Assembly (NCBI RefSeq): GCF_900105925.1
Contig: NZ_LT629791.1
Span: 1,364,001-1,428,000 of the forward strand
Reading direction: 5' to 3'
From: Jiangella alkaliphila
GTDB lineage: Bacteria; Actinomycetota; Actinomycetes; Jiangellales; Jiangellaceae
DNA: 64,000 nt
The notes beneath the pieces are model-generated. The model saw only the letters and a list, made by a program, of their open reading frames with translations. It searched no databases and was not told the origin of the DNA. Positions 32,751-51,573 of the stretch are shown piece by piece. The first letter of the stretch is position 1. The number at the start of each line of letters is the position of its first letter. The position numbers and the translations under genes were made by a program.

Positions 32751-32786
32751 CCGAAGGCGGCGCCGTTTGTCACGGTTCGGCGCGGC

Positions 32787-32806
32787 TTTCCACAACTGAT
32801 CCACAA
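32787..32806. other. DnaA-box-like sites before the beta-helix gene
   Basis: TTTCCACAA (32787-32795) and TGATCCACA (32797-32805) each resemble the 9-bp DnaA box. They are imperfect. Two exact boxes lie just after the same gene. Confidence 0.3.
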
Positions 32807-32859
32807 CCTGTGGGTCACGCTGCGTATCGACGCGTTGGTGCTCGCGTCGGCGCAGGTGA

Positions 32860-32892
32860 AAGACCCCTCGGGCCCTTACCCCGAGGGGTCTT
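32860..32892 (+). terminator. Rho-independent terminator after the META genes
   Basis: AAGACCCCTCGGG (32860-32872) pairs perfectly with CCCGAGGGGTCTT (32880-32892) around the loop CCCTTAC, followed by a T-rich tail. It nearly repeats the hairpin at 37011-37043, with the same loop. Confidence 0.9.
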
Positions 32893-36572: not shown

Positions 36573-36583
36573 AGTCCGCCGAG

Positions 36584-36649
36584 TTGTCCACAGATTCTGT
36601 GCACAGGGGTGTGGGTAACGGACGGCTCACGCTCAGCCTCTTGTGGACA
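36584..36649. other. Pair of exact DnaA-box sequences
   Basis: TTGTCCACA at 36584-36592 and its reverse-oriented counterpart TTGTGGACA at 36641-36649 lie between the beta-helix gene and the candidate ncRNA promoter. This 9-mer is the actinomycete DnaA-box consensus. There is no dnaA, dnaN or A/T-rich unwinding region, so this is not oriC. Confidence 0.45.
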
Positions 36650-36693
36650 GCCTTGTGGGTGACGAAAGGGCCCGGAAATCTTCGCCGAACCCC

Positions 36694-36722
36694 TTGTGCG
36701 GCGTGCGCGACAGGACTAGAAA
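36694..36722 (+). promoter_or_regulatory. Promoter of the candidate ncRNA
   Basis: TTGTGC (36694-36699) and TAGAAA (36717-36722) are 17 bp apart. Transcription would start near 36729. The -35 region is weak and the -10 lacks the usual final T. Confidence 0.4.
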
Positions 36723-36728
36723 TACTCC

Positions 36729-37050
36729 ATCGTCATCGACGAGTTCGGAGCCGGAAAGCCGGGGTGACCTGGTCAAAGGCACTGAACGAGTCGAGGGCGG
36801 GCCGGAAGGATAACGGCAGTTCGCCACGTCGGGGCAACCCGACGAACCGCACACCGATGCGCGGGGCGGCTGACGGAGCCAGCCGGCAGACCGGAAGGGC
36901 AGTGGAGCACCCACGGGCAACCGTGAGAGCACCGCCGCTCGAGCTGCCGTCATCGGAGGTGGCGAGCATCCGGCCGGTTCATCCGGCGGTGATGGTTCTG
37001 GTCGACTGAGAAGGCCCCTCGGACCCTTACTCCGAGGGGCCTTCGCCTTT
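36729..37050 (+). ncRNA. Candidate structured non-coding RNA of about 320 bases, unidentified
   Basis: The 534-bp gap after the beta-helix gene has no credible reading frame but is rich in local stems. CGTCGGG-GCAA-CCCGACG (36827-36844) and CACGG-GCAA-CCGTG (36912-36925) are GNRA-tetraloop hairpins. TCGTC-ATC-GACGA (36730-36742), CCGG-AAAG-CCGG (36751-36762) and GCCGG-TTCAT-CCGGC (36973-36987) add more, and CC-GGAA-GG occurs twice. A promoter precedes it and a strong intrinsic terminator ends it. It lacks the conserved cores of RNase P RNA, tmRNA and SRP RNA. Size and layout recall the actinobacterial 6S-like Ms1 RNA, but I cannot confirm homology. Confidence 0.55.
37011..37043 (+). terminator. 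Intrinsic terminator of the candidate ncRNA
   Basis: AAGGCCCCTCGGA (37011-37023) pairs with TCCGAGGGGCCTT (37031-37043) around loop CCCTTAC; CGCCTTTG follows. It is almost the same sequence as the terminator at 32860-32892. Confidence 0.85.
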
Positions 37051-37070
37051 GTCCGGCTGCGCAAATTCGA

Positions 37071-37100
37071 TTGCCGCCGGCGACCCGCGGCCGGTAGACA
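37071..37100 (+). promoter_or_regulatory. Leaderless promoter of the acetyltransferase gene
   Basis: TTGCCG (37071-37076) and TAGACA (37095-37100) are 18 bp apart; the GTG at 37107 is at the expected transcription start. Confidence 0.55.
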
Positions 37101-37106
37101 GGGCCG

Positions 37107-37673
37107 GTGATCAACCTAGCAGCCGTGGCCACCACGCCCACGCTGACCGGCGAGCGCATTCGGCTGGTCCCGCTCGGCCCCGAGCACGCCGCGGCCCTGT
37201 TCGAGTCGCTGCACGATCCCGAGTCGATGCGGCTCACCGGCACCCACCGCACGTTCACCCGGGCCGATATCGACGCCTACTGCGCCAGCCGGGCCGAGCA
37301 GGACGAGCGGCTCGACTGGGTCATCGAAGACGCCGTCACGGGTGAGTACGCCGGCGGCATCGCCGTCAACGACATCGACGCCGACAACGAGACCGCCGGC
37401 TTCCGCATCGACCTCATCGAGACGTACCGTGGCCGGGGCCTCGGCCCGGAGGCGATCGAGCTGATGCTGCGCCACCTGTTCGACGAGGTCGGCGTCCATC
37501 GGGTCGACCTCGAGGTGTACGCGTTCAACCCGCGGGCGCAGCGCTCCTACGAGAAGTGCGGGTTCGTCGTCGAGGGCCGGATGCGCGAGTCGCTGCTGTG
37601 GGACGGCCAGCGGGTCGATACCATCGTCATGGGCCTGCTCCGGCCCGACTGGCTGGCCCGCCGCAGCGTCTGA
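37107..37673 (+). CDS. GNAT-family N-acetyltransferase (RimJ/RimL-like)
   Basis: A 188-residue acetyltransferase of the Acetyltransf_3 group, which acetylates protein N-termini or small amines with acetyl-CoA. It shows LTGERIRLVPLGPEHAAALF at the N-terminus. The acetyl-CoA binding motif is near RIDLIETYRGRGLGPEAIEL, with VHRVDLEVYAFNPRAQRSYE and KCGFVVEGRMRESL at the C-terminus. The substrate is unknown. GTG at 37107 fits the leaderless promoter; a second GTG lies six codons in. Confidence 0.85.
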   Translation: MINLAAVATTPTLTGERIRLVPLGPEHAAALFESLHDPESMRLTGTHRTFTRADIDAYCASRAEQDERLDWVIEDAVTGEYAGGIAVNDIDADNETAGFRIDLIETYRGRGLGPEAIELMLRHLFDEVGVHRVDLEVYAFNPRAQRSYEKCGFVVEGRMRESLLWDGQRVDTIVMGLLRPDWLARRSV

Positions 37674-41152: not shown

Positions 41153-42466
41153 TCACGGGCAGCGCGGCACGGGTGCGCTGTACGTCGTGTTGGAGCGGTT
41201 GGCCACGTAGTAGTCGGGCACCCAGCGTCCGTCGGCCATCCGGTTCCAGACGGCGCTGGTGCCCACCGCCGTTCCCGTGTTCTGGCACATCACCCACGCC
41301 AGCGCTCCAGGCGGCAGCGCAGCGCCGCTGACCGGATATGACACACCCGGTCCGGTGCGCGCGCTGAGCGGTGTGGTGCTGGTGACCTGACCGGGGTACG
41401 TGCACCGCTGCAATGGGCTGGAGAATGTCGTGTTCGACGGCGTCGAGACGTAATAGTCTGCGACCCACGCGCCGTTGGTGAGCCGGTCCCACACCGAGCT
41501 CGTCCCGACCACCGACCCGAGGCCCTGGCACATCACCGCGAGCGTGCTGCCGGGCGTATGGCTGCTGACAACCGGGTAGGACGTGCCTGGCCCGCTGCGC
41601 GCGTTCAGCGACGTCGAGCTGGTCACGCTGTAGCTGCGGGCGGTCGTCGCGACCGGCGCGTCGAGGGCGTCGCTGTCGATGTGGAGTGTGACGCCGCCCC
41701 AGGTCTCGCTGTGGTCGCCGAGGTACTGCTTGAGCCGCTGGTGCCCGGCCCACTGCGCATTCGGCGCCGTCGGCCAGCCGCTCAGCGCGGGGTTGCCGTC
41801 CCACCGGGCCATCCACACGGCGTCCGGGCGGGCCCAGCTCGAGTTCCCGTAGGACGCGGACAGGTCGCGCAGCCCTGAGTCCTGGTGCACGTACGCCCCG
41901 GCCAGGTAGCCGGCGCCGTGCAGCGTGGTCGTCCAGGCGGAGACGTAGCGGCGCACCGCGAGCGCGCAGGTGGCGTCGGTGCGGTCGTAGTGCTCGACGT
42001 CGGCGTAGAGGGCGCTGCCAGGCAGCAGGCCCAGGGCGCGTGCCTGGGCGATGGCGTCCTGCGCCTCGGAGGTGCCGTACGCCCCGGCCGTCCCGGCGGT
42101 GTAGCGGTGCGGCTTCGTGCCCAGCATGCAGTACGGCTGCCGGCCGAAGTACGTGGGCAGAAGCCGCCAGCCGGCCGCCGTCGCGTCGCGCACCCAGCCG
42201 GCGGAGAGGTTCGGCTGGGCACAGCCGCGGTTCACTCCGCCGAAGTAGATGTTGACCGTCCGGTACGACGACGCGAGCCACGTCTTCAGCGCCGAGATCG
42301 ACGGGGCCGTGCACGTGTCGAACCCGCGCCCGATGGCGAGAGTCGATGCCGACCCGGGCGGATAGTAGACCGGCGAGTCCGGCAGCGCGGCCGCCGTGCT
42401 GATGCTCGCGGCCACGAACGTGGCGGCGGCGACGGCGGCCCCCGCCGCCTTGGTGAGTGTGCGCAT
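41153..42466 (-). CDS. Secreted Rv2525c-like glycoside-hydrolase-fold protein with two SH3-like repeats
   Basis: A 437-residue exported protein. After a signal peptide (about residues 1-27) comes a DUF1906-type TIM-barrel-like domain (about 40-265) with [40 protein letters not shown] and [12 protein letters not shown]. Two SH3-like repeats follow, each starting [17 protein letters not shown] or [14 protein letters not shown] and containing a conserved VMCQ cysteine. Rv2525c of Mycobacterium is a related cell-wall protein. Peptidoglycan binding or hydrolysis is inferred. It has a paralogue immediately upstream. Confidence 0.85.
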
Positions 42467-42536
42467 GATGGACCCCCCGTCCGTCACCATCGAGTCTGCT
42501 CCTGCGAACAGGGCGTGAACAGGGAGGTCAGCCTAG

Positions 42537-43373
42537 TTATCGATCTGCAACCGTGGCGATGGGCGCGTCGAGGGAGTCGCTGTCGATGTTGATGGTGACG
42601 CCGCCGTGCGTCTCGTTGTGGTCGCCGAGGTACTGCTTGGCGCGCTGGTGATTCGACCACTGGCTGTCGGGCGCCGTCGGCCACCCGGTGAGCGCCGGGT
42701 TGCCGTCCCACCGCGCCATCCAGACGGCGTCGGGACGGGCGTAGTCGGGGGAGTCGTAGACGGCGGACAGGTCGCGCACGCCGGAGTCCTGGTGCACGTA
42801 CACCCCGGCCAGGTAGCCCGCGTCGTGCAGCGTCGTCGTCCACGCGGAGACGTAGCGGCGGACCGCGGTGATGCACGAGGTGTCGCGGCGGTCGTAGTGC
42901 TCGACGTCGGCGTACAGCGCGCTGCCCGGCAGCAGCCCGAGGTGCTGGGCCTGCGCGATGGCGTCCTGCGCGTTCGCGGTGCCGATGGCGGTGGCGTCGG
43001 CCTCGGTGAACCGGTGCTCCTTGGTGCCGAGGATGCAGATCGGCTGGTGGCCCATGTAGGTCGGCAGCAGGCCCCAGCCCATGCCGCTGACGGTCTGGAC
43101 CCACGACGGCGTCAGGTTCGGCTGGCGGCAGCCGCGGTTGATGCCGCCGAAGTAGATGTTGACGGTGGTGTAAGGCGACGTGCCCCACCACGCGTCGAGC
43201 GCGGCGACCGACGGTGCGGTGCAGGTGTCGAAGCCGAGGCCGGTGGCGATGGTGGGCTCCGGGAGGCGCGCGTCGGTGGCGCTCACCGGGGCGGCTGCGG
43301 TGACGGAGGTGGCGGCGAACAGGACGGTGGCGGCGATGACCGCGTGTCGTCTCCGGGTCATGGAAACAGTCAT
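42537..43373 (-). CDS. Secreted Rv2525c-like protein, single domain
   Basis: A 278-residue paralogue of the downstream gene, lacking the SH3-like repeats. A signal peptide (RRRHAVIAATVLFAATSVTA) is followed by the same domain ([72 protein letters not shown]). Tandem duplication with domain loss or gain is evident. ATG at 43373 or four codons later. It begins 1 bp after the damaged epimerase gene. Confidence 0.85.
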   Translation of the reverse strand: MTVSMTRRRHAVIAATVLFAATSVTAAAPVSATDARLPEPTIATGLGFDTCTAPSVAALDAWWGTSPYTTVNIYFGGINRGCRQPNLTPSWVQTVSGMGWGLLPTYMGHQPICILGTKEHRFTEADATAIGTANAQDAIAQAQHLGLLPGSALYADVEHYDRRDTSCITAVRRYVSAWTTTLHDAGYLAGVYVHQDSGVRDLSAVYDSPDYARPDAVWMARWDGNPALTGWPTAPDSQWSNHQRAKQYLGDHNETHGGVTINIDSDSLDAPIATVADR

Positions 43374-51460: not shown

Positions 51461-51573
51461 GGTCATGAGCGCCAGCGCCAAGCCCCGGCTCGCTGGCCGG
51501 CAACCCTCCGCCGCGGTGGGGTGCCCCGGGTGACGACCTGGCCGGCTCGATCCCGAGACGGCAAGCGCGGATC
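51461..51573 (+). promoter_or_regulatory. SAM-IV riboswitch
   Basis: The leader of the aminotransferase gene matches the SAM-IV aptamer: GGTCATGAGCGCCAGCGCCA, AGCCCCGGCTCGCTGGCC, GGCAACCCTCCGCCGCGGTG, GGGTGCCCCGGGTGACGACC, and the pseudoknot tail GGCAAGCGCGGATC. GGTCATGAG pairs with the later GACGACC region to close the core. It senses S-adenosylmethionine and should switch off sulfur-metabolism genes when it is abundant. A -10 box TAGGCT lies at 51444-51449. The start codon is 33 bases after the aptamer; GGAG (51597-51600) may be masked in the bound state. Confidence 0.9.

Follow-up and report, generated by a model that had tools for sequence, protein, structure and literature searches.

A putative structured RNA family preceded by a DnaA-box-like array in Jiangella alkaliphila and related actinomycetes

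The stretch of DNA that we analysed, referred to here as the window, comprises 64,000 nucleotides and corresponds to positions 1,364,001-1,428,000 of the 7.72-Mb single-contig genome of Jiangella alkaliphila (G000). A 534-bp gap (36573-37106) separates two plus-strand genes in this window: a pentapeptide-repeat gene (PF13576; 33003-36572), whose 1189-aa frame had been described in the original prediction as a giant beta-helix, and a gene for a GNAT acetyltransferase that starts at 37107 and whose protein has its nearest matches in Jiangella species. The gap had been proposed to be free of any credible protein-coding gene, and comparison of 17 members of the RNA family described below agrees with this: no conserved reading frame was found, the longest closed plus-strand frame ranging from 26 to 109 aa with stops in differing frames. 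Conservation of the gap merely as a coding frame, a possibility raised beforehand, is therefore not what we observed. Elsewhere, the window contains a SAM-IV riboswitch (51461-51573, plus strand; 107.8 bits in the Rfam search) and two adjoining Rv2525c-like glycoside hydrolase-like genes (41153-43373, minus strand).

Judged from its sequence, the gap almost certainly holds a single independent gene, encoding a structured RNA of about 315 nt (36729-37045, plus strand), the 5' end of which we place from the promoter and the 3' end from the terminator. The predicted promoter (36694-36722, plus strand) consists of a -35 element TTGTGC, a 17-nt spacer and a -10 element TAGAAA, and the pattern TTG(N3)-17/18-TA(N4) recurs in all 20 members of the family. 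The promoter-like element noted earlier is upheld in this form, but not as an E. coli-type promoter, for which a scan returned no match. The same scan also missed the intrinsic terminator at 37011-37043 (plus strand), its sole match being a minus-strand site at 36727-36742. This terminator, found exactly where it had been predicted, possesses a 14-bp stem, a loop sequence that is near-invariant in the Jiangellaceae and a weak U-tract; a terminator-like hairpin closes the RNA in 20 of 20 members. Both BLAST and a covariance model of the central domain (R1) find a single copy of the RNA in G000. The many stable stems that had been remarked upon are reflected in a predicted fold stability beyond that of shuffled sequences (z = -5.64 for 36715-37050 and -6.66 for 36725-37046, with none of 100 dinucleotide shuffles as stable in either case), and homologues folded alone gave z values of -8.17 (G015), -4.94 (G018) and -5.87 (G003).

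The family has 20 members, 12 of them from Jiangella genomes (G000 included), five from other Jiangellaceae and three from another actinomycete family (f38). BLAST analysis of 60 relatives detected the element in all 11 other Jiangella genomes and in five of the ten remaining Jiangellaceae; in G009 it gave a second match of 58 bases. The six Jiangella loci retrieved with the GNAT protein all contain RNA stretches that are identical to those in six of the 11 genomes. Short BLAST matches in two genomes outside the family (G037, G027) were rejected, since reading of these loci showed no element. When R1 was searched over 393 genomes, it found G000 and the same 16 relatives again, together with five matches outside the Jiangellaceae. 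One of the latter, from G216 (f38), represents the whole element; the match in G190 (L135) sits inside a 512-aa frame and was dropped, as were the weaker matches in G187, G234 and G341 (L136-L138), which lack a terminator or array. A BLAST search from G216 over 99 genomes led to the member in G365; it also gave matches to the terminator alone, and its leads in G400, G395 and G412 were dropped because the element proved absent on reading. The last member, from G396, was found with a longer covariance model (R2) searched over 40 genomes. R2 was built from 14 members and recovers all five left-out members; matches of this model in G404, in G049 and at G216:C17 were dropped after reading of the loci, and further R2 matches outside the 20-member set occur in G287, in G393 and at a second site in G365.

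With the searches described above, the element was not found by BLAST or R1 in five Jiangellaceae (G012, G013, G014, G019, G020), nor in 14 of the 17 f38 genomes listed in the R2 search, the other three being G216, G365 and G396. In genomes without a match, the RNA is either dispensable or was overlooked. The true G365 locus was passed over twice by the genome-wide first look (in the R1 and the R2 search), and it scored 40.6 bits with R1 and 43.6 bits with R2 when it was given to the models directly. Because the first look is insensitive to this extent, the absences constitute weak evidence.

Common to the members are a long 5' hairpin, an AACGGC junction strand and a three-hairpin 3' domain (all coordinates that follow are on the plus strand). 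The 5' hairpin, P1 (36730-36800), is long and interrupted and carries a GNRA apical loop (GUGA in the window). When the members are folded separately, the minimum-energy structure shows it in 19 of 20, the exception being G017, which the covariance model aligns all the same. The GNRA loop of P1 sits on a stem of 3 bp or more, likewise in 19 of 20, G396 having GCAA on 2 bp. The central domain is built on helix P2, in which the 5' strand (36801-36809) pairs with the 3' strand (36879-36887) and about half of the members possess a GA/GA-type internal loop. Inside P2 follow the junction strand AACGGC (36812-36817; 19 of 20 members) and helix P3 (36817-36872), which closes two hairpins: P4 with its GCAA loop (36827-36844) and P5 (36847-36864), whose loop CCGAUG (36854-36859) is a proposed pseudoknot strand. 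The 3' domain is closed by P6, formed between 36889-36896 and 36996-37003, and contains the hairpins P7 (36898-36940; GCAA loop at 36912-36925), P8 (36943-36963) and P9 (36966-36996). This combination of a closing helix and three hairpins is found in 20 of 20 members, the first hairpin being branched in G365. Two GCAA hairpins had been predicted at precisely 36827-36844 and 36912-36925, and both are recovered in this fold. The two CCGGAAGG elements that had been noted do occur, at 36802-36809 and 36891-36898; they are not hairpins, however: each supplies the 5' strand of a long-range helix, P2 and P6 respectively.

The members likely also share a loop-loop pseudoknot. The P5 loop CCGAUG is complementary to the sequence CAUCGG (36951-36956) in the loop of P8, and we propose that the two form a kissing-loop interaction. 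Both strands are changed in G016 (CCGACG/CGUCGG), G216 (CGACG/CGUCG) and G365 (GUGUCA/UGACGC); in G015 complementarity is kept through a G-U pair, and in G396 the pairing needs a bulge. With hand-picked loops from ten members, the mean duplex energy was -9.5 kcal/mol for a member's own loops versus -5.3 kcal/mol for 70 cross-class pairings, the G216 loop forming a slightly better duplex with the G016 loop than with its own. In the minimum-energy fold of the whole RNA, the P5 and P8 strands pair outright in G003, G004 and G365. They are mainly unpaired in most other members, apart from one to three bases engaged in weak apical pairing; a few P8-strand bases of G016 and several others lie in such a weak apical stem, and in G015 the P5 strand is paired elsewhere. 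Taken from these models, a kissing-loop pseudoknot is likely to form in the folded RNA.

Covariation between homologues had been set beforehand as the test of the predicted structure, and it is present. In an alignment of 19 members, which was fitted to the structure and in which 12 sequences are close relatives, 30 of 51 pairs have changes on both sides and 94.3% of the cells are paired; none of 500 shuffles reached any of five measures, and slid structures were 33-43% paired. A structure-blind MAFFT alignment of the central domain of 17 members gave both-side changes in 16 of 27 pairs (0/500 shuffles). Among the 14 closest members alone the signal was weak: 8 of 51 pairs changed on both sides, and the pair-type count was matched by 148 of 500 shuffles. 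A tree-aware count put the compensatory branch events of the fitted alignment at 30.1, where 300 null simulations averaged 2.87 and never exceeded 9; a repeat with slid controls gave 30.2 events against 2.74 (maximum 7), with at most 3.8 in the slid structures. For the structure-blind alignment of 17 members the count was 10.8 against 1.68 (maximum 6; slid structures no higher than 3.5), and for the 14 closest members 3.0 against 0.82 (maximum 5). In a strict per-pair test, 6 of 51 pairs were significant when the proposed pairs alone competed and none of 51 when all column pairs competed, the depth of the alignment being limiting for the latter result. From these comparisons of sequences, the RNA family and its fold appear well supported as far as 20 members allow.

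A search of the gap with the 4227 models of Rfam 15 yielded no match at the gathering threshold and two chance-level matches up to an E-value of 10; the open-access literature contained no description of the RNA that could be found by title or the start of an abstract. The RNA therefore very probably lies outside the known families, and the prediction of a novel structured non-coding RNA of about 320 nt, distinct from RNase P RNA, tmRNA and SRP RNA, is borne out by the lack of an Rfam match, by the covariation of its members and by the lack of a reading frame kept among them. The novelty is that of an RNA family; structured bacterial RNAs as a general kind are already known. The Rfam search also found no 6C RNA (RF01066) in the window. 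This actinobacterial structured RNA differs from the new one in its 75 model positions and its place beside a HAD gene, where Rfam locates it in 12 of 16 HAD loci; one such copy, at L116:2401-2470 (minus strand), scores 48 bits against an Rfam threshold of 47.

The original prediction had also raised Ms1 as a side possibility, which is rejected here. Ms1, MTS2823 and scr3559, which bind core RNA polymerase, resemble the new RNA as stand-alone actinomycete RNAs of about 230-300 nt with their own promoter and terminator; they differ from it in sequence core, fold and locus, and both RNAs occur in one genome. Jiangella is listed among the genera with a predicted Ms1, found via synteny and similarity, as described in PMC9130861. 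From HAD-adjacent gaps we derived an Ms1 core signature (ACCCACG ... ACGCYTGGT), which is present in 32 of 118 genomes, among them the Jiangellaceae G013, G015 and G017; the matches in G056, G110 and G111 are apparently due to chance. The exact signature was found in none of the 12 Jiangella genomes. An nhmmer profile of 27 cores, one of them the core of G017 itself, detected Ms1 in six of six HAD regions (G000, G001, G003, G004, G010 and G017). In G000 the core lies at G000:C1:696071-696176 (L241:16072-16177; E = 1.1e-13), 1.66 kb past the HAD gene and about 705 kb from the new RNA, and the best match of the profile in the window has an E-value of 3.7. Open frames between the HAD gene and the Ms1 core would explain why strict HAD synteny can miss the Jiangella Ms1; the HAD-adjacent gap itself measures 65-203 nt in six of seven Jiangella loci and 351 nt in G009. 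Searched in the reverse direction, R2 matched none of 30 HAD loci (best E = 0.063), which end at 1.5 kb, short of the Jiangella Ms1; over 33 Ms1-bearing stretches it gave one background-level match off the Ms1 core (E = 0.022, L233), compared with E = 0.014 for an unrelated sequence of G000 (L242).

Upstream of the predicted promoter, the gap contains an array of DnaA-box-like sites (36584-36662) that the original prediction had overlooked; the starting point given there, 36584, coincides with the first letter of an exact TTGTCCACA. This first box (36584-36592, plus strand) equals the published high-affinity DnaA box of Streptomyces coelicolor and Mycobacterium tuberculosis, as described in PMC4285127, and the same sequence occurs twice in the dnaA region of G000. 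Relative to the consensus TT(A/G)TCCACA, the second site, CTGTGCACA (36597-36605, plus strand), has two mismatches and reads TTGTGCACA or TTGTACACA in several other members. It is followed on the minus strand by TTACCCACA (36610-36618), where nine of 20 members have a site with at most one mismatch, by CTGTCCACA (36642-36650), about 80 nt 5' of the -10 end, and by the weaker TCACCCACA (36654-36662), with two mismatches. Counted from the -10 end (to within 2 nt), 18 of 20 members have a site of no more than one mismatch at -137 to -139 (exceptions G018 and G216) and 19 of 20 have one at -79 to -81 (exception G216), the remainder of each locus containing none to two such sites; the array is reduced in G216 and G018. 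These two best-kept boxes lie 110 and 44 nt 5' of the -35 element. If one mismatch is allowed, there are eight sites in the whole window, three of them within 36584-36650. If two are allowed, about 80 bp of the array hold seven sites, some of which overlap on opposite strands, and this is the densest cluster of the window.

A search of 393 genomes for the box-spacing pattern returned 15 genomes, 12 of which were matches to the element, compared with four of 393 for a backward control. The pattern tolerates no mismatch and misses seven members (G003, G004, G009, G010, G016, G017, G365); the matches in G110, G338 and G252 were judged to be chance from the matched strings alone. On this evidence DnaA probably binds the array, although the sites could also be used by another protein. 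Three further DnaA-box-like sites with one or two mismatches are located at 32786-32817, just 5' of the pentapeptide-repeat gene, and are followed at about 32855-32890 by a terminator resembling that of the RNA, a similar one being kept in other Jiangella genomes. A second look-alike terminator, which we considered as a possible part of the system, is found about 4 kb upstream of the RNA in several relatives.

The neighbouring genes of the element differ between loci. The RNA of G015 is preceded by a META-domain gene, behind which lies the counterpart of the pentapeptide protein, and is followed by a convergent FtsX-type permease gene. An alpha/beta-hydrolase-like gene precedes it in G365 (just below the Pfam cut-off) and G396, and a phosphate transporter gene follows it in G365. 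Given this exchange of neighbours, the RNA is not tied to a single target gene in cis. The gene that precedes the RNA points towards the array in G015, G365 and G396 as well as in the window; at these loci the array is consequently not the promoter region of a divergent gene and serves the RNA promoter or acts alone. Plasmid and phage records had no match to the RNA element (blastn, E 1e-5). The distance between dnaA and the RNA was 273 kb in G000, 317 kb in G001, about 218 kb in G003 (assuming a circle), 297 kb in G004, 277 kb in G010, 227 kb in G017 and 168 kb in G015, and hence 168-317 kb in all seven genomes read; in G015 and G017 the RNA lies on the other side of dnaA.

Two known systems invite comparison with this arrangement. 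CcnA of Caulobacter is a cell-cycle non-coding RNA whose gene holds three weak DnaA boxes, as described in PMC8959179. It resembles the new locus as a non-coding RNA gene with DnaA boxes and differs, by its description, in its size of 182 nt, its place at the origin itself and its presumed activation by CtrA; the new RNA is encoded 273 kb from dnaA, and its boxes lie 5' of the promoter. The datA and DARS loci of E. coli are described in PMC4585315 as non-coding DnaA-binding regions away from oriC. The new locus is likewise a non-coding region away from oriC, with a cluster of putative DnaA boxes, and differs in that boxes and RNA are conserved together. To our knowledge, datA and DARS include no conserved structured RNA.

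We consider the chances about even that the locus is best explained as the gene of a DnaA-controlled, trans-acting structured sRNA; from the sequence data we infer the transcript, the binding of DnaA, the direction of control and the downstream action. That the RNA would instead act in cis on the acetyltransferase gene, as its leader or attenuator, is very improbable: this gene begins on the same strand 64 nt past the terminator in the window, but other genes follow the RNA in G015 and G365, and at L038 the GNAT gene is about 4.5 kb away from the terminator. The idea of a relocated Ms1 draws on the similar size and on the shortness of the usual Ms1 gap after the HAD gene in six of the seven Jiangella loci. 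The co-occurrence of the two RNAs already refutes it and leaves it virtually no chance: G015 and G017 carry both, Ms1 cores were found in the HAD regions of G000 and five relatives while the window offers no comparable match, R2 detects no Ms1 locus above background, and the new RNA lacks the Ms1 synteny, the HAD hydrolase/CicA gene (G000:C1:693609-694415) being about 706 kb distant. For the RNA, the strongest competing explanation is that it binds RNA polymerase in the manner of 6S, Ms1 or CoRP while being unrelated to Ms1 by descent, and we regard this as decidedly unlikely. The size is near that of Ms1 (about 300 nt) and of a 318-nt piece of CoRP (516 nt), the gene is single-copy with its own promoter and terminator, and Corynebacterium glutamicum shows that actinobacteria can have more than one such RNA type (PMC11077062). 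According to PMC4191392, however, Ms1 forms a single long hairpin that is opened by a bubble at its centre and has two short hairpins at the ends, whereas the new RNA has a covarying junction architecture and a three-hairpin 3' domain in place of a single long hairpin, and Ms1 is already present in the same genome.

For the array, the strongest competitor is a locus devoted mainly to DnaA titration or switching after the manner of datA and DARS, in which the boxes would keep the pool of free or ATP-bound DnaA low close to the origin, and the RNA gene would, by being transcribed, remodel the array or would simply adjoin it. The fixed spacing of the boxes and the position within 168-317 kb of dnaA on either side of it fit such a function; datA and DARS are non-coding regions whose conservation in sequence and position has been studied, and datA is a site at which read-through transcription acts (PMC4585315, PMC10950094). 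We nevertheless hold it to be unlikely, since it leaves some 300 nt of a compensatorily kept RNA fold unexplained; moreover, the proximity to dnaA may stem from ordinary origin-symmetric rearrangement, and the distances differ almost twofold. That control of the RNA by DnaA is the conserved purpose of the arrangement appears to us to have a little under an even chance.

Under the proposed DnaA-controlled, trans-acting sRNA, the RNA would be transcribed from its own housekeeping-type promoter, end at the intrinsic terminator and fold into the 5' hairpin P1, the central domain P2-P5 and the three-hairpin 3' domain P6-P9, which the P5-P8 kissing loop and docking of the GNRA loops probably hold together. 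Such an architecture suggests an RNA that works as a compact particle, by itself or together with protein, and not through a short antisense seed. DnaA bound to the fixed-position array would most likely switch or tune the RNA promoter, so that the amount of RNA would track the replication state of this origin-proximal locus, and the RNA may then act downstream, most likely on a protein partner in the control of transcription or replication.

Bacteria have few large structured RNAs, and these have often proved to be ribonucleoprotein particles or catalysts. A tentative and more far-reaching possibility, to which we give less than an even chance by a good measure, is that the element represents a new actinomycete RNA class whose promoter is a dedicated DnaA-responsive unit, the initiator driving or gating an RNA of about 315 nt that probably functions as a ribonucleoprotein; this would give these bacteria an RNA arm of replication control of a kind known to us from no model organism. 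If our explanation is true, Jiangella and its relatives would possess a large RNA family that is new among bacteria, has a proposed tertiary contact and exists alongside Ms1 and 6C in one and the same genome, and would offer a concrete and easily tested RNA gene under a dedicated DnaA-box array.
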